Shown here: positions 2,233 to 15,147 of the stretch, piece after piece
Numbering within the stretch: position 1 is the first letter of the stretch
How the letters are laid out: every line of letters begins with the position of its first letter
IMG/VR virus record: IMGVR_UViG_3300032182_000104
Span: 1-23,437 of that record
DNA: 23,437 nt
Origin: a virus
Direction: 5' to 3' (one strand)
Position numbers and translations under genes: made by a program
Notes under the pieces: generated by a model
What the model was told of the DNA's origin: nothing
The model's database searches: none
The model's input: only the letters and a program-made list of their open reading frames with translations

Positions 2233-3360
2233 TCAATTGAGGAAAATGGTGAGTGCTTTGACAGTAAGTGTACCAGCAAACGTTGCAGTTGTCACCCCTG
2301 CCATGGTGATCTTGTTCACACCTAGGGCAGACACGATCTCGACACCGCTGGCCATGTTTGCCTTGAATGATTGCTTGCCTGGACCTAGTGAGAGGTCCCA
2401 ACATGCACCCACCACTGGTGGTTTGTCGCCAATAGCAGGGACAACACCCAAAATCTCTTCAGTCTTTGTTCCACCTGCTTTGAGGTAGTGGTTGCCAACT
2501 GTATCTAAACCGAAACCACCAGTGGTTGACTTGAGGTTGATGTTAGCAAGGGCATTGATGTTGTAGTGACCACCAACACCAAGATTATAGTTGCCTGTAA
2601 TACTATGGTTGATAGTTCCAACACTGTTGGTAGCTTCAGTTGATCCTGGTTGTGTGGTGTTGTACGTCTTCTCACCAGCACCATCAACGTAGTCAGCACT
2701 ACCAATAGTCTTGTTATTGAATGAGGTGTTGAGGTTGTAGTCTCCACACCAGACACTAAACTTACCGTTGCCATCACCGACCTCGATGTTGACTGCCTCT
2801 CCTGCCTTGAGTGTTAATGTCTTGAGAGCATTGATTGTAATGTTGTCGCCCTTAAGATCGCAGGAATCTCCTTGCGCTTCAATAGCGACCTTTCCTTCGG
2901 CATACACAGAGTATGCATGGTCTTCCTTTGTAGACTCTCCTCGGTTTCCTCTATCATCTGATGTTCTTGTGGCATCTTTAGGACCCTTCGCTTGTACTGT
3001 AATAGTTCCACTAGCATTATGAATCTGGTCGGCACTGTTGAATACCAACTTACCACCACACCCTGCTTGACCAGGGACACCAGTGGAGAATGTCATGTTG
3101 CCTGTCTCGTCAAAGAACATAGCACTTTGACCGTTGGTTACGACGTAACCTCCAGGCTGACCGTCACTACCAGCCCAGTCCATGCAGGTCCAACCATTGG
3201 AGACCCAATGAACTGCTGGTTTTTCTGTACAAAATTGTTCTGTACTTAACTCACCATCTTTTCTGCCAGACGTAGGTTCTGCCGCACCATCTTGTTTGCC
3301 AAGTGTAGATGACTTGGCAGATGGTTTTACTGTATCTGTTTTGTTGTGTACGTTTGCCAT
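2233..3360 (-). CDS. Beta-rich baseplate/spike protein, gp5 C-terminal or VgrG-like
   Basis: A 375-residue structural protein directly downstream of the gp5-like hub gene; the ATG overlaps the hub TAA (TAATG). The first 50 residues are low-complexity and polar. The rest is a run of short beta strands with glycine and asparagine turns, for example DNITINALKTLTLKAGEAVNIE and NYNLGVGGHYNINALANINLK. This is the style of the beta-helical spike of T4 gp5 and VgrG. The product probably caps or extends the central spike or hub. A TTG start nine bases upstream is possible but less likely. Identification rests on style and context, not on a recognised domain. Confidence 0.7.
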   Translation of the reverse strand: MANVHNKTDTVKPSAKSSTLGKQDGAAEPTSGRKDGELSTEQFCTEKPAVHWVSNGWTCMDWAGSDGQPGGYVVTNGQSAMFFDETGNMTFSTGVPGQAGCGGKLVFNSADQIHNASGTITVQAKGPKDATRTSDDRGNRGESTKEDHAYSVYAEGKVAIEAQGDSCDLKGDNITINALKTLTLKAGEAVNIEVGDGNGKFSVWCGDYNLNTSFNNKTIGSADYVDGAGEKTYNTTQPGSTEATNSVGTINHSITGNYNLGVGGHYNINALANINLKSTTGGFGLDTVGNHYLKAGGTKTEEILGVVPAIGDKPPVVGACWDLSLGPGKQSFKANMASGVEIVSALGVNKITMAGVTTATFAGTLTVKALTIFLN

Positions 3361-6300
3361 TAGGGACAATCAATATATTTACCAGTGCCGATCTTGACAG
3401 CGCCTCTAGTTGCGAGAGCATCAGGATCAAGACATACCATGTTAGGTAGAGCGATTGCTCCACTTCCACTTCCACCAATGATTTGCACCTTGGGAGTCTT
3501 TGTGTATTTAATTGTTCGATCTAGGATTCTGACACTGATAACAAATCCTCGTTCATCAATGATTGCTTCAGCAATTCCCTTCTCACCATTTATGTATACG
3601 GTGGGAGCAGTCTTGTATTTTATACCAGGAGCAATCAGTGTGAAGGAGTCGATGATACATTCGATTCCATTATCTTCGGGAGTGTTGACCTTATACCCTA
3701 GGCCACCCTTGGTGACTCTGATCTCGGAAACGTATCCTCTATCATCTAGGAGAGCGATAGCAGTTGCACCAAATCCTTTACCAGAACTGATGATAACTCT
3801 AGGTGCTTCTTTGTATCTATCACCAGTATCTTTGATAGGAATTTGTATGATAGTGCCAACGTCATCAGTGATAGGAAGATCTGCTCTTGGTTTCGTGAGT
3901 TCTACTCTAGGTGCTTCGGTAACAGGTTCTTCGTCAACATATGTTCCAACGATAGTAACTGTTGCTGTAGCATCGTAACCTACAACCTTGAAGTATACCT
4001 TCTCGTCACGCTCATTATCCAAGTCCTCAACAATACCAACAGTAACTCTTGCTGTGTTATTACGGACTACAAAGTTACCATTTAGATTTTCCTGAACAAA
4101 ATCTTCTGGTCTGATGTCACCATAGAGTTGATACTGTAGACGTGTGCCATCAGGGATGTTCTGTGTAGTAATGGTGTAGTAGATGTCTTCACCTTCATAG
4201 TATAGCTGTTTGTCAGTGGTGACATCAACGAATTCAGTAGGTACTGTGTTTGGATTGTAGTTTGGATTGACTAGACCGTATGCATCATAAGTAATAGTGA
4301 CAAGAGCCGAAGCATCAGTGTCAAGATCTTCCTCGTCAACTACAGTGAATACCAAATCTTGATACTCATTTGTCAATACATTATCATCAGCAAGTTTTAC
4401 CTGGACTGTACCAATACCAAGAGGAATCTGCACAGTAACAACTTCATCGTCATCATTGACTGTTTCTTCCTCGATGGTGTCAATCTCTGTGATTACATAG
4501 TCACCAGTGAGACTACCACTGTCAAAGTATTCAGGTACGATGGTGTCGCCACTCAATCTATACTTTAGAATAGTTCCGATAGGAACATTAGATGTCCTGA
4601 TCGTGTAGGTGATTGTATCACCCTCTGTCACTAGAGTAGGATCAGCAACAACAGTATAGTATCTACCACCACTAGGATCTACAGGTAGATCATCATCAGG
4701 GTCAGCATCATCAGGAGCATCGTCAGGAATGATACCTTCTGGCGTAGGTGAGTTACCACCAGGGAAGAAGTCATCTCCATCATCGTCAGTAAACTGTGGG
4801 ATGATGTTGGGATCGTTGGATGGATCTTCGGCCTCTGATGGGAAGAAATTAGGTGGAGTTTCAACGCCAGGGAATAGATTACCTGGAGGTTCTGAACCAC
4901 CAGAAGGAATCTCGGGAGGATCCCACTCGGGAACACCACCAACGAAAATAACTTGAGTTGGAGGAGCATCAGAATAGTCTAGAGACTCTGGACAATCAAA
5001 ACGCTCACCAGTATCACCGTCCTCTAGATCTTTCAGTAGTTTATCAAGGAAGTCTTCCTCATCTTCATCAGTTCCACAGTCATTACACTTGACAGTTTCC
5101 TCGGAACACTTACTACTAGGTCCACTACAGTTGATGCCAAGGAACGACATTACTTTCTGGACTGCAGAAGACACAAGGTCTACAGCACCACCAATGATTG
5201 ATAGTATCGATTGAATCGGTCCAAGAACTTGAGCAATCAATCCATCAATCAATCCTAGAATCTGATTGACAATACCATCAACTAGGTTAGTGATAGCACA
5301 AGCAGCAGGAGAGAAGATCTCCATGACAAAATCAAACAGAAGATCTGTCAAGAACTGTACTAGTTTGTCAATAAGATCTTCGATAGCACAACCAAGAGCT
5401 TTCAAGATCTGGTCAAGAACTTTCTTGATTGTCTTCAGTACATTACCTTTTGGTTTGACAGTATCAAAGTCTTGTTTAGGATCGACGGGTACTTTTTCTT
5501 TCTCTTCTTCTGGTACGTTGAGACCCAGCGCAATCTTAACTAGGTCTTCAATACCCTGACGAATAGTTCTGATAATTTCTGACTGGATTCTACCAACCAA
5601 ACTTCTTACTAGTCTAGTGACTCTACCAATGTGATAGCGAGCAATCGATACTTTATCATACAAGAATCCATTGACCTGACTGACATAGTAACTACCAAGT
5701 TGACCACCAGATGACTGGTTCGCTGCCAACATATCACCAACGATGTTAGTCAGTTGCTTCGAGAAGTTACTCTCTGTACCACAGGTAGGGTTAGCAATAG
5801 TAACACATGCTTTAGAACCAATAGGGTTTGCTTCACTGTGCTTGCCGCGCAGTGCTGCAATGATAGCGGGAGCACCGTTCTCTTCGTGGGCCTGTGCTGC
5901 ATCAGGTTCACCACCATCTACGTTAGCACCAGTGTCAGGATCAGTACCATCCTGATTCTTCATCGAACGATGAGCTTGTGCTTTAGATTCTGGGTCTGTA
6001 CCTGTAGTATATCCTAATCCTTCTCCAGTGTTCTGCGGAAGATCTACCTTAACTTCAGTTGCACCAGCGGTGTGACCAATCGATCCCATGATGATTGGTT
6101 TCTGTCTGTCATTGTCAAGGAAGAATCCAGTGACCCAGTTACCTGCACGTAGGTTTACAGTAGCACCAGTGACACCACCATCACTGAAAGGTGTGGTGAC
6201 TGGCAGCATAACTTGTGCCCAAGGTAACTCCTTCGTGGGTGTAGTATCCTTGAGGTTATGTCCAATAATTCTTACACGATACCTGCCAGACTTTTTAGGA

Positions 6301-10473: not shown

Positions 10474-13440
10474 TCAACCCTGTAGTTTTTGCATTAACAA
10501 AGTCTTTGATGCATTTGATTTCTTCTTGGGAAGTATCGTAGGTCCACCAACTATGATAGGAGGAGGTGAAGGAGCCTGTTGAATAATAATGATGGGTTCA
10601 TCACCCATATCATCTCCCTCTTCATCGTACATCAAAATCTCTGGAGCATGTCTCTCAACTGCACTGACTAACTGATCTGGAGTAGTCGCGGCATTAAAAG
10701 CAGACAACATTTCATAGATCGGTTTGTGTTCATAAACCAAATTTTTCATGACAATTTCAGGACCTTCTTCACCAACAGTGATCTGTTCCTGACCATTCAA
10801 ACCAACATCACCACCATATCTAAAGGCAGGTCCAGGCTTATCAAAGATATCAAAGTCTCTGTTACCACCCTCACGTTTCATAGCAGAGAAGTGCATCGCA
10901 TCTTTAACACTACTCCACGCACCACCCCATCCTAGTCCATGCTTTGCAGCAATCTCACCGATGTTATCTGGCATGTCAGTGACCAACGCTTTTCCATATG
11001 GGTTTTTTGTTGGGTTAATATCGATCGATGCTCCGTATGGGTGAGCATATCTGTTCTTATCATAATCAGCATCAGCAGGTCCAGTACCACCACCAGTTCC
11101 TGCTGGTCTCCATCCACCAATAACATCAATCTTATATCCAGTTGCTTCTAGATCAGTAATGAATCCTTTGAATTGATTAGCAACAATACTAGCTACCTGG
11201 AATGACTTACCACTTTGTGTAGTCAGGGTAGTTAACTTAATACCAGTGTTCCATGGTCTATCTCTGACCACACCTGTTGATGGTAAGTTGGCATCGGTTG
11301 GTGCAGCAGGAGGAACTGGAGTTCCATCGGGACCTCTTGGTGTGATGCCAAAGAATCTAGCAAGACCAGAGAAAAAGTTACCAGTATTTGAATCTGCTTC
11401 ATCTAGTTGCTTCTTCTCTGCATCGGATAAGTCTATTGTTTCTTCCTCAAAAATGTCACCTTTATCTTTTGCTTTCTTTTTACTTTCTTTCAAAGCACTA
11501 TCAATGCCAGCAAAGGATCCACCGACATTTGTTTGTGCCAAAGTAGCAGGAACATCAAATACATTAGTGAGAGATCCAGCAACCTGCTTGAACATGGGAG
11601 CAACTAATGCTGCTGCGGGACCTGCTTGCGTTAAGAAATTAGATGCTGCTCCTATCAAGGCTCCGCCAATAGGACTCAACATCTTGGTGGGAGAATAATC
11701 TTTATCAACAATTGCTTCCGTTCCATGAAGCATGGCAAGTCCTGGTTTAGTTAGTCCACCAGTTTCTTTTTGAGGCAAACTTTCATCAACTGCTTTCTGA
11801 TCTTCGGCAGTAAATTCTCTACCAGTGATGGCATTAAAAATATCATACATGAATAGTCCAGTATCAGCAGCAATAGATACTGCTTCCGCAACCGCTGGGA
11901 CAGCAGCACCAGCACCAGTAAGAGCAGCACCAGAAGTAGCAGTAGTAACTAGACCAGCAGTGCCACCAAGTCCAGCAAGCCATGCACCTACGGTGTCACC
12001 CCTCATTGCTCTATCAGCAGCATCAGCAGCACTAATAGCAGTTCCAGCAACAGGAACCATTCTTCCGCCGTACTTTGTCGATGCTATTGCTATTCTTTTA
12101 GCAACAGGAGAATTTTTTACAAAAGCAAGTCCCCTTTTACCATATCGTACAGCATCATCACCAAATCTTTGACCAAATCTTGCTACACCTTCAAGAGCTT
12201 CGCCACCAAATCTTTTGGTAGCCTTAACTGTATCATCTACCTTTGTAGATACAGCAGTTGTTGTTCTCTTAACAGCACCAGCAATACGATCTTTGGTGTT
12301 GCCTAAAAATCTTGCAGCCCTTTCCTTCTGGGTGTTGAGAAAATTTCCTGCTCTACGTACAATGTTTTTCGGACCAAACTTCATCCTCAACAGACGAAGA
12401 CGAGATCTCATCCATTTTGGAGCAAACTTTTTCCACATCCAACGAGCTATGCGCCCGAAGTAATTACTTTTTCCACCGCCGCCACCCTTCTTATCCTTGT
12501 CGTTAGGGTCTGGGATACCAATTGTGTCAGCAACATCACTCTGTGCTTGACGTGCAGCAATATCTCTAGCAGTTTCTGCATCATCAATCGCTTGCTCTGC
12601 TGCTGCAGTTTGTGCTTGGAAGGCAGCAAGAATAGCATCAAACTTTTGATTGAGTCCCTCATGACTGGTCTCAATCTCTTGCAGATTAGTGACAGTAGAA
12701 CCCAATGCTTCTCCAAGCATTGTATTTTGCTTCTTCAGTTCTACATTAATACTTGACAGAGTACCAGCAATGGCATCTAATGATGACACCAACGTGGACA
12801 ACATCTTCTTGTTAGAGATTGAACCAGAAGACGATGATTTAGAAGTCTTTGGTGTCTTCTCGTAGTTCTGTCCCGTCTGTTGATTGACTGCCGCCAACAT
12901 ACCAGGGGGCAGTAAGTCTACGATGTCAGATAGATCTGGTGCTTCCTCTTTTGCAACTTCAGGTTCTTCTATCGGAGCATCTTCTAGTGCCTCATCTACT
13001 ACTTCAGCAGCCTCTTCAATGTTTTCCTTTACCTCTTCTTCCGCCTCTTCTACAACGTCTTTCGCTTCCTCCTCTACTACCTCTTTCTTATCCTCATTAG
13101 AGATAGTTGTGTCTGTAAATCCTTCGGTGCTAGATTTTACTGGTAGATATCGTTCAATCAACCACTCTTGATACCTTGTCTCGTCAATGCCGCTAGTGCT
13201 ACCAGTTTGAAAGGTTGGATATCCAGCCTCATCCTGCTTCATGTTAGCGATGATAGTATCCAAGTCCTTTGTGGACAACTGTTTACTATGCAACTTAAAA
13301 TATCTGGTGCCATCGTAAGCCTGACCACCAGATAGTTTTGCTCTTACTCTATCAAAAATATGATCCTTCTGTCCACCACCAGGCACACCAGCCCTATACC
13401 ATTGAACTATTCCTTCTGGTGGTGGAGTGGTGAACTTCAT
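10474..13440 (-). CDS. Large tape-measure-like tail protein with M15 (VanY-like) peptidase domain
   Basis: A 988-residue protein. Residues 1-100 form a unique N-terminal domain. Then come TEGFTDTT (105-112), a very acidic Glu-rich segment (117-165), a coiled coil (212-300, with DAILAAFQAQTA at 268-279 and DDAETARDIAARQ at 286-298), a basic stretch (325-460), hydrophobic Gly/Ala segments (485-530, 590-625), and tape-measure motifs at 560-578 (LHGTEAIV) and 875-898 (VGEEGPEIV). Residues 735-855 are an M15 peptidase of endolysin type, with zinc ligands H800, D807 (HPYGASID) and H850 (DAMHF) and probable catalytic D847. It would cleave peptide stems of peptidoglycan. The start overlaps the stop of the gp51-like frame (ATGA). 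Its position after the frameshifting chaperone pair is where tape-measure genes sit, so it is the best tape-measure candidate here. Confidence 0.78.
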   Translation of the reverse strand: MKFTTPPPEGIVQWYRAGVPGGGQKDHIFDRVRAKLSGGQAYDGTRYFKLHSKQLSTKDLDTIIANMKQDEAGYPTFQTGSTSGIDETRYQEWLIERYLPVKSSTEGFTDTTISNEDKKEVVEEEAKDVVEEAEEEVKENIEEAAEVVDEALEDAPIEEPEVAKEEAPDLSDIVDLLPPGMLAAVNQQTGQNYEKTPKTSKSSSSGSISNKKMLSTLVSSLDAIAGTLSSINVELKKQNTMLGEALGSTVTNLQEIETSHEGLNQKFDAILAAFQAQTAAAEQAIDDAETARDIAARQAQSDVADTIGIPDPNDKDKKGGGGGKSNYFGRIARWMWKKFAPKWMRSRLRLLRMKFGPKNIVRRAGNFLNTQKERAARFLGNTKDRIAGAVKRTTTAVSTKVDDTVKATKRFGGEALEGVARFGQRFGDDAVRYGKRGLAFVKNSPVAKRIAIASTKYGGRMVPVAGTAISAADAADRAMRGDTVGAWLAGLGGTAGLVTTATSGAALTGAGAAVPAVAEAVSIAADTGLFMYDIFNAITGREFTAEDQKAVDESLPQKETGGLTKPGLAMLHGTEAIVDKDYSPTKMLSPIGGALIGAASNFLTQAGPAAALVAPMFKQVAGSLTNVFDVPATLAQTNVGGSFAGIDSALKESKKKAKDKGDIFEEETIDLSDAEKKQLDEADSNTGNFFSGLARFFGITPRGPDGTPVPPAAPTDANLPSTGVVRDRPWNTGIKLTTLTTQSGKSFQVASIVANQFKGFITDLEATGYKIDVIGGWRPAGTGGGTGPADADYDKNRYAHPYGASIDINPTKNPYGKALVTDMPDNIGEIAAKHGLGWGGAWSSVKDAMHFSAMKREGGNRDFDIFDKPGPAFRYGGDVGLNGQEQITVGEEGPEIVMKNLVYEHKPIYEMLSAFNAATTPDQLVSAVERHAPEILMYDEEGDDMGDEPIIIIQQAPSPPPIIVGGPTILPKKKSNASKTLLMQKLQG

Positions 13441-13628
13441 CTACGAGCCTTTGCTTCTTCTGCTTTTTTCTTTTCTTCTTGAATGTGCTGAATCAACAGG
13501 GAGGTGTATACTTCACGCTCCCAAGGCATCATGTTTTCTATTTCCGTCAAAGAGTATTTATGGTACTGCATCATAGCGAAGTTAGTCTTGTAGTAGCCCT
13601 CCAGACTATTCTGAAAGACCGCTATGCG
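13437..13628 (-). CDS. 51: gp51-like frame expressed by -1 frameshift from gp26 (or from an internal ATG)
   Basis: A 63-codon frame lies in the -1 phase after gp26, running from 13628 to a TGA at 13437-13439. It ends in a charged helical tail, and its core is MMQYHKYSLTEIENMMPWER. This resembles the small gp51 proteins that follow gp26 in cyanophages (a family I recall, not checked). The frame has no ATG between its opening and the MM pair near 13572-13577, which has no Shine-Dalgarno sequence, yet the coding-like residues upstream (VFQNSLEGYYKTNFA) would be lost from that start. gp26 ends with a T TTT TTC heptamer at 13634-13628, so a -1 slip would fuse gp26 residues 1-236 to these 63 residues. 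The TGA overlaps the ATG of the tape-measure-like gene. Confidence 0.75.
   Translation of the reverse strand, partial: RIAVFQNSLEGYYKTNFAMMQYHKYSLTEIENMMPWEREVYTSLLIQHIQEEKKKAEEAKARR
13555..13561 (-). promoter_or_regulatory. Possible late promoter inside the gp51-like frame
   Basis: ATAAATA (context CCATAAATACTC) lies about 115 nt before the 988-residue tail gene. It coincides with His-Lys-Tyr codons, so it may be a chance match. Confidence 0.3.
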
Positions 13629-14335
13629 AAAAAAGATTGCAGTCCCTCAATAGTATACTTACACTCCACACCAGTGTTGGGATTGTCTACTGTAAATGAG
13701 TGTGAAAGTTTGGGCATAGTCTCATAGAACTTTTGGATTGCCTCGAACTGTCTGCTGGTCAAACCCTCAACGAACTCACGGAACTCTTTCTTACTTGTAG
13801 TAGAAGAGTCATAAACATCTTCACCTTGGAAGATCTGATCGATGTGTTCAGCGATGAAGTTAAAGATGTGCTCGGGGTCTAGATCCTTCTGCAAGAACTG
13901 GGACTCAATAAATCTATCCATGCTGGGATAGTTCATGATGATTCCCATGTCATCAGTCAGCATGATCTTTCTGTCATGGCCCTCCTGCATCTGAACTTCC
14001 ACATCATCAATATCAATGCCTGCTTTTGCTTGAGTTGTACCATCATCAGTACAAGTAACAGTCATCTCAATGAATGATCCAACAGCAGCGGCACGAATCT
14101 TAAGGAACAGATACTCAAGATCAAATGATGGTAGTTGATCTACCTTCACTCTCGAAAGAATACATGCTCTCAATGTGCCCTTCACTGCACTAATAATTTC
14201 TTTCTCGTCTCCAGATTCCAAAGCAAGTAGAAGAATCTTCTCTTCTTTAACTAGGAATGGTCTATACTTTACCGTCTTGCCTGTGGATGGGAGAGTTAGT
14301 TCGTAAGTAGGAACACCAAGTTTAGGTAATGCCAT
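13622..14335 (-). CDS. 26: gp26 baseplate hub assembly protein, with 3' slippery site
   Basis: A 237-residue protein of the T4 gp26 baseplate family. The N-terminus MALPKLGVPTYELTLPSTGK followed by KYRPFLVKEEKILLLALES is the family signature. In T4, gp26 acts in hub assembly. A late promoter and the second 55-nt repeat lie just upstream. The last codons are CAA TCT TTT TTC GCA TAG, which contain the heptamer T TTT TTC in the correct phase for -1 slippage two codons before the stop. This would make two products, gp26 alone and a gp26-gp51 fusion of 299 residues. The layout (tube protein upstream, tape measure downstream) fits a tail-assembly chaperone pair. Confidence 0.9.
   Translation of the reverse strand: MALPKLGVPTYELTLPSTGKTVKYRPFLVKEEKILLLALESGDEKEIISAVKGTLRACILSRVKVDQLPSFDLEYLFLKIRAAAVGSFIEMTVTCTDDGTTQAKAGIDIDDVEVQMQEGHDRKIMLTDDMGIIMNYPSMDRFIESQFLQKDLDPEHIFNFIAEHIDQIFQGEDVYDSSTTSKKEFREFVEGLTSRQFEAIQKFYETMPKLSHSFTVDNPNTGVECKYTIEGLQSFFA
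13628..13634 (-). promoter_or_regulatory. Slippery heptamer T TTT TTC for -1 ribosomal frameshift
   Basis: On the minus strand the sequence reads in the gp26 frame as TCT TTT TTC GCA TAG, an X-XXY-YYZ heptamer with X=Y=T and Z=C. After a -1 slip the next codons are CGC ATA GCG, entering the gp51-like frame. A weak hairpin (CAGA-ATAG-TCTG) follows about 17 nt downstream; no strong stimulatory structure was seen. Confidence 0.7.
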
Positions 14336-14421: not shown

Positions 14422-15120
14422 TCAGAAAGGGAAATCCAGATTGCCAGTTGCATCTCCAAAAACAACAGTGTGCTTTTGATAGTAGAAGTTAGCAGTCACC
14501 TTGGTGATCTGTGACGTACCATATGACAGAGGAACAGAGTCAATAGAGTATGGATATGCGTTCTCCAAAATATATGTGACGGATGCTCTACCGTTAGGAG
14601 CAACACCATTCCTCTCGGTCTTGGTGATCCTCATCGTAGGACAAGCATACTCTTCTGGATACTTCAGACGCACCGCTCTGTTTATCGGTCTGGGTGTGAT
14701 GTTTTTGATAGTATTCAGTCCAGCCTCTGACGTTTTAGGATCATCAGGATCACCGCCATTGAAAATGTATGAGTGCCATGCTGTGACAAACTTCAATGGA
14801 ATCATATCAGCATCACACATCCATGTCAAGGACAAGTCACTATAAAATTTTGCGTAGGGATAGTTAACTTGACTCTCACCCAAGAACCTACCACTCACAG
14901 ATCCAGTTGCTGCCTGCACATTAGGAAGTTGTGCCTCATCACACAACAACTTGATCATGATACCCTTTTCTGATGGGCTTCTGGCATTAGTTACATCACC
15001 AACCCAAGGATTGAGGTAGTTAGCAAGAGATGAAGGTAAGTTAAAGTCTACATCATATCCATTTGTCATGGACATGCCACCACGCTGGGCAATGGATTGT
15101 AAGAAAGTATCTAGTGACAC
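14422..15120 (-). CDS. Tail-tube-fold protein (gp19/gp54-like)
   Basis: A 232-residue structural protein. A central segment (SQVNYPYAKFYSDLSLTWMC followed by DADMIPLKFVTAWHSYIF) and the C-terminal VTANFYYQKHTVVFGD resemble the tail-tube superfamily that includes T4 gp19 and gp54. Because cyanophage gp19 usually sits with the sheath gene, this copy more likely initiates the tube at the baseplate, as gp54 does. The GTG at 15120 gives SLDTFLQSIAQRGG as N-terminus and is preferred over a TTG at 15144; an ATG at 15075 would remove this segment. A late promoter core lies at 15154-15148, so transcription would begin upstream of the GTG. gp26 follows in the same direction. Confidence 0.65.
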   Translation of the reverse strand: MSLDTFLQSIAQRGGMSMTNGYDVDFNLPSSLANYLNPWVGDVTNARSPSEKGIMIKLLCDEAQLPNVQAATGSVSGRFLGESQVNYPYAKFYSDLSLTWMCDADMIPLKFVTAWHSYIFNGGDPDDPKTSEAGLNTIKNITPRPINRAVRLKYPEEYACPTMRITKTERNGVAPNGRASVTYILENAYPYSIDSVPLSYGTSQITKVTANFYYQKHTVVFGDATGNLDFPF

Positions 15121-15122
15121 AC

Positions 15123-15129
15123 TAAATAA
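15123..15129 (+). promoter_or_regulatory. Possible late promoter for the gp4 operon
   Basis: CTAAATAAG on the plus strand, 27 nt before the gp4 ATG, is a degenerate match to the late core. It faces the stronger minus-strand late promoter at 15148-15154. Confidence 0.4.
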
Positions 15130-15147
15130 GAATAGTTGGTCCAACTA

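Follow-up and report, generated by a model that had tools for sequence, protein, structure and literature searches.

Comparative evidence for programmed -1 ribosomal frameshifting in a tail assembly chaperone gene of T4-like cyanophages

In the 23,437-nt stretch of viral DNA analysed here (IMG/VR virus record IMGVR_UViG_3300032182_000104, positions 1 to 23,437; hereafter the window), a short gene for a putative tail assembly chaperone, named 'gp26 baseplate hub subunit' in relatives, is followed by a second reading frame, named 'gp51' in relatives, which has no conserved start codon. The question raised by this locus is how the second frame is expressed. A previous sequence-only reading had proposed that a programmed -1 frameshift joins the two frames. 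We compared the locus with its relatives, and the heptamer, the -1 frame and the putative stimulatory elements together strongly supported the proposal. On this comparative evidence, the tail assembly chaperone gene is very probably expressed by programmed -1 ribosomal frameshifting.

The short gene (TAC-N, 237 aa) is located at 13622..14335 on the minus strand, as are all features described below, and its 3' end reads GAG GGA CTG CAA TCT TTT TTC GCA TAG, with the TAG at 13624-13622. A single sense codon, GCA, separates the TAG from the slippery heptamer T TTT TTC (13628..13634), and the initial T of the heptamer is the third base of a codon, which places it in the X XXY YYZ phase that slippage by -1 requires. 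The shifted frame begins CGC ATA GCG ... and has 63 open codons (13628-13440) before a TGA (13439-13437) that overlaps the ATG (13440) of the next gene as ATGA, so that the -1 extension with its stop covers 13437..13628. The predicted fusion (TAC-NC) would join residues 1-236 of TAC-N to the extension and be 299 aa long (236 + 63). The heptamer and its phase, the 63-codon frame ending at the ATG of the next gene, and the length of the fusion had all been part of the sequence-only reading, and each was borne out when the open reading frame was read. The in-phase T TTT TTC was unique in the ~7,100 codons of the window genes.

We then asked how well this arrangement is conserved. The same heptamer was located one codon ahead of the stop in 78 of 80 IMG/VR relatives of the short gene (identity 48-85%), the two exceptions being a broken reading frame (L003) and an in-frame fusion (L060). 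The alignment of the junction that had been suggested with the original proposal was run on 88 loci, which comprised the IMG/VR relatives, public phages and genome contigs with near-duplicates removed; scans with KVP40, DLP6, RHph_Y68 and SH-Ab 15599 as queries added few loci or none. The in-phase TTTTTT[CTG] was retained in 86 of the 88 (80 with C, 5 with T, and 1 with G), and the two loci without a qualifying site were L088 and the outlier Vibrio phage D503. The Phe codons of the site were TTT in 70/70 and TTC in 70/70 of the cyanophage-type genes, whereas synonymous codon identity averaged 53% gene-wide, and TTT TTC was the rarest spelling of the Phe-Phe pairs elsewhere in the same genes (4/77). 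Measured against Phe-Phe codon pairs, per-column codon identity, dinucleotide shuffles and slid pairings as chance controls, the arrangement was far beyond chance.

Two of the exceptional loci had distinct structures. In L088 the TTT TTC was kept and the gp26 stop was replaced by TTG, so that the 0-frame continues for several codons. In L060 (a 236-kb contig, 3001-3894) both parts formed one in-frame protein of 297 aa, with TCTTTTTGG replacing the slip site and the neighbouring genes intact; this fusion is either a natural loss of the frameshift or a sequencing error.

The -1 frame itself had the properties of a coding sequence. Its length was 58-70 codons in all 86 heptamer-bearing loci, and the extension of the window matched phrog_634 'baseplate hub assembly catalyst' (gp51) with E = 6.9e-29. 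The earliest ATG of this frame in the window belongs to an MM (ATG ATG, 13569..13574), and both upstream and downstream of it the changes in the -1 frame were almost confined to the third positions of its own codons. In the stretch from the gp26 stop to the MM, every difference seen in the close relatives L001, L002, L004, L005, L006, and S-CAM3 was synonymous in the -1 frame, and the more distant L007 showed one non-synonymous change. Since nearly all changes there were synonymous, this part of the -1 frame, which in the window precedes every ATG of the frame, evolves as protein-coding sequence. The third-position changes and the phrog_634 match confirmed the coding-like character that had been ascribed to this frame.

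These data bear on the first alternative, in which translational coupling or reinitiation at an internal ATG (the MM, or one just beyond the gp26 stop) yields gp51 as a separate small protein. GenBank records do annotate gp51 as separate (S-CAM3, P-HM1, S-PM2, S-RSM4, and others), and an ATG was present a few bases past the gp26 stop in 48 of the 86 loci. However, the -1 frame had its first ATG at widely varying positions (codon 4, 5, 10, 11, 20, 21, 33, or later), two loci lacked an ATG in this frame altogether, and a Shine-Dalgarno (SD)-like motif was missing at 82 of the 84 first ATGs. In the window, no ATG occurs until ~20 codons inside the conserved -1-frame protein sequence, and at the position of its MM the relatives mostly have LM, LI, LV, or LL, which agreed with the earlier remark that no start codon precedes an unsupported MM. 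An internal start would also leave the invariant heptamer and the GAG codon bias described below unexplained, and in T4 and RB43 the extension is part of the same encoded protein as the domain of the short gene (PF12322). Homologues with a proper SD sequence and ATG for gp51 and no heptamer, named in the sequence-only reading as the case that would speak against it, were not seen among the compared loci. With the first ATG unconserved and nearly always devoid of an SD-like motif, an independent start for gp51 was rejected as very improbable.

The known spacings from the slip site in -1 frameshifting are 9-14 nt for an SD element and 5-9 nt for a downstream structure (PMC5009743). Putative stimulators of both kinds, neither of which figured in the sequence-only reading, were added by our analysis. 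Upstream, an SD-like GAGGG (13644..13648, 9-10 nt 5' of the heptamer) was located in a GAG GGN codon pair 14 to 9 nt ahead of the heptamer. Its Glu codon was GAG in 62 of 67 Glu-bearing rows (0.92) versus 33% elsewhere in the genes, the highest GAG fraction of all 17 Glu columns (6-81% in the others); the enrichment was 25.7-fold, with P = 5e-24 when rows are treated as independent. An SD-like 4-mer was present at that position in 74 of the 86 loci. The glycine of GAG GGN is a protein constraint.

Downstream, a stem-loop (13595..13620, 11 bp with a 4-nt loop) starts 7 nt past the heptamer in the window, with a minimum free energy of -15.2 kcal/mol (z -4.0), and a 3-bp lower stem lengthens the hairpin to 13624-13591. 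The mean z of the 40-nt downstream RNA was -2.81 in 60 cyanophage loci, versus -0.02 to -0.93 in control windows. Across 68 distinct rows, 70.9% of the cells of the main helix were paired versus 26-45% in slid versions, with 53 double changes observed versus 22 in shuffles, and the covariation of the stem-loop was 0.240 versus 0.044-0.140 for slid pairings. In the window's own group of 10 distinct close sequences, 98.9% of the cells were paired and a compensatory GC/CG exchange was found. RNAalifold over all 70 rows returned no consensus structure, probably because the two cyanophage groups pair one base out of register (column sum 83 in the window subgroup and 84 in the main group); when the two register groups were counted separately, both helices were supported. 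The spacings of the GAGG (~10 nt) and of the stem-loop (7 nt) fit the known ranges, and we presume that both elements are stimulatory.

In a second alternative, the long form arises by transcriptional slippage, with RNA polymerase dropping or adding a U on the six T's; the tract is a plausible if short substrate, and hairpins can assist polymerase slippage, but the strict codon phase, a run never longer than six T's that is followed by C in 80 of the 86 loci, and the 5' SD-like element with its selected GAG codon, which fits ribosomal -1 frameshifting, left this explanation with hardly any probability.

Several observations counted against ribosomal frameshifting. The hairpin was clear solely in cyanophage-type loci (48/70, versus 2/16 of the others and a background of 4.6%), and the Glu-Gly before the slip site partly reflects protein constraint. 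The conservation tests count related phages as independent rows; because such phages are non-independent samples, the P values are inflated, and the controls based on shuffles, slid pairings and comparisons within genes are safer to go by. The likeness of the short form to a known chaperone fold was also weak: its AlphaFold model (pLDDT 86) gave a sole high-probability match in the PDB, HK97 gp13 (2ob9; prob 0.82, 62 columns), at E 0.85.

At the protein level, the 0-frame product matched PF12322 (E=2.6e-68; 230 bits versus a curated cut-off of 24.5) and phrog_150 (E=6.7e-77), and a comparison of its model with viral models returned many 'baseplate hub' proteins of T4-like phages. Family scans found no sequence relation of the PF12322 family to lambda gpG. 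The predicted structure of the natural fusion in L060 was poor at the junction and in the C-terminal half of the short domain (pLDDT 72, pTM 0.49) and was not used.

From the elements, their conservation and the homology we infer slippage, and from lambda its efficiency and the protein roles, as follows. The majority of ribosomes would terminate at the TAG and release TAC-N ('gp26', 237 aa), and a minority, moving back by one base at T TTT TTC, would extend the product by 63 residues ('gp51') to give TAC-NC (299 aa), with pairing of the GAGG to 16S rRNA and the stem-loop 7 nt downstream as the likely stimulators. If the proteins act as lambda gpG and gpGT do, the tape-measure protein would be coated by numerous copies of the short form, and the long form, in few copies, would use its extension to recruit tube subunits. 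The lambda slip site is G GGA AAG; here it is T TTT TTC, and an SD-like element and a hairpin are conserved. The combination of an SD-like element ~10 nt upstream, a homopolymer heptamer and a downstream hairpin resembles E. coli dnaX, a different gene in which the slip leads to termination, whereas in the chaperone gene it would lead to extension. For the tail assembly chaperone locus of Vandenendeviridae and Andersonviridae, PMC12846349 describes a conserved poly-T site for -1 slippage where TAC-N ends (3'), followed by >200 bp of -1 extension that is usually annotated as a gene of its own; the motif there is GTTTTT, and the phage families are different.

We further investigated how this locus relates to T4, in which gp26 and gp51 are encoded by two genes on opposite strands, divergently transcribed and without a frameshift. 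T4 gp26 and gp51 each match the full length of PF12322, the domain found in the 0-frame product, and only gp51 continues into phrog_634. A profile of the cyanophage extension found the C-terminus of T4 gp51 (E=1.7e-5), the long protein of RB43, and the gp51 proteins of phages 31 and phiP4-3, with KARL-1 gp51 marginal (E = 0.02), and it matched no gp26. Because both T4 proteins carry PF12322 and only gp51 has the extension, T4 gp26 corresponds to the short form and gp51 to the long form. The equivalent of T4 gp51 would therefore be the long product and not the 63-codon tail alone. The link that the sequence-only reading drew between the separate T4 genes and the chaperone frameshift was supported; its equation of the 63-codon tail with the whole of gp51 did not hold, since T4 gp51 contains PF12322. 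The annotators of KVP40 had earlier remarked on the likeness of its small open reading frame to the C-terminus of T4 gp51.

We found this slip site together with the extension in pf16, DLP6, Menderavirus, Stenotrophomonas phage Yut2, Rhizobium/Agrobacterium Pootjesviridae, Acinetobacter phage SH-Ab 15599, Vibrio phages KVP40, K575, and vB_VmeM-32, Aeromonas phages Aeh1, phiAS5, and avDM6, and Cronobacter phage S13. Judged by these sites, frameshifting appears widespread among T4-like phages, including Aeh1, KVP40, and S13. Two genes were found in T4, KARL-1, Aeromonas phage 31, phiP4-3, and RB43; in T4, RB43 and others the long protein is encoded without interruption, alongside a short paralogue. 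Short and long products with a common N-terminal domain would be made by frameshifting in the cyanophages and are encoded by two paralogues in T4, RB43, and KARL-1. In RB43 (L102, 2501-3794) the long paralogue is followed in tandem by the short one and after that by the next hub gene, unlike the divergent T4 pair; the tandem is possibly a different outcome of the same duplication. Vibrio phages VAP7 (L097) and D503 (L098) retain the -1 extension without an X XXY YYZ heptamer, with the junctions CAC GTT TTT CGC and TCA CTT TTC AAG respectively, and may slip through different tRNA pairing at a site that is unproven.

In an unrooted tree of 30 rows, the long forms made up one clade, and the frameshifted genes together with VAP7 and D503 lay on one side of a branch with support 98/97. 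Four of the five short forms grouped, and the RB43 short form, on a long branch, fell outside. Xu et al. reportedly established in 2004 that frameshifting is the rule in the chaperones of other tailed phages, and for this reason a single change from a frameshifted gene to duplicated genes is favoured. The broader proposal is that marine T4-like phages set their short:long ratio with a dnaX-like three-part cassette, that frameshifting was the original state throughout the T4 superfamily, several Straboviridae among them, and that T4 genes 26 and 51 derive from one such frameshifted gene through a single event of duplication and splitting; we considered it somewhat likelier to be right than wrong.

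T4-like tail assembly chaperones were reportedly identified in 2022 by Vladimirov, Gautam and Davidson (Virology 566:9, PMID 34826709). Citing that work, the PRFect paper (PMC10885494) mentions some T4-like phages in which a long fusion gene exists apart from the short one, and PMC12846349 mentions poly-T frameshift signals in T4-like TAC-N genes. Since both arrangements are cited from it, the core idea was already known, and according to these citing passages the connection with lambda G/GT had been made before. Possibly new are the SD-like element, the two-register covarying hairpin, the occurrence of frameshifting in Straboviridae, and the conservation at nearly every cyanophage-type locus. 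None of the public records examined joins the two frames: gp51 is annotated separately, with its start placed past the gp26 stop or on an internal codon, in S-CAM3, P-HM1, S-PM2, S-RSM4, DLP6, and KVP40, and is left unannotated in S-CAM1, Aeh1, S13, and avDM6. Frameshifting would explain the start-less short 'gp51' frames of many cyanophage records as the end of a fusion protein, and such annotations would need changing. It would also link T4 gp51, the 'hub assembly catalyst', with the long chaperones of other phages, and the T4 hub factor gp26 with their short ones. The short:long ratio would depend on ribosome slippage in cyanophages and on separate expression of divergent genes in T4, a comparison that is testable.

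The chaperone gene is flanked by a tube-fold gene upstream (14422..15144) and a gene for a 988-aa protein downstream (10474..13440). The upstream product matched phrog_45 (tail tube) and PF23849, in agreement with the tube fold noted from the sequence, and its relatives carry gp54-type tube-initiator annotations; these matches place it in the tail-tube family and do not specifically indicate the main tube protein gp19. The 988-aa protein (phrog_11440) has a D-Ala-D-Ala carboxypeptidase domain (M15_4, PF13539) close to its C-terminus. From its position it is a candidate tape-measure or internal tail protein, and the M15_4 domain suggests that such a protein would have cell-wall activity.

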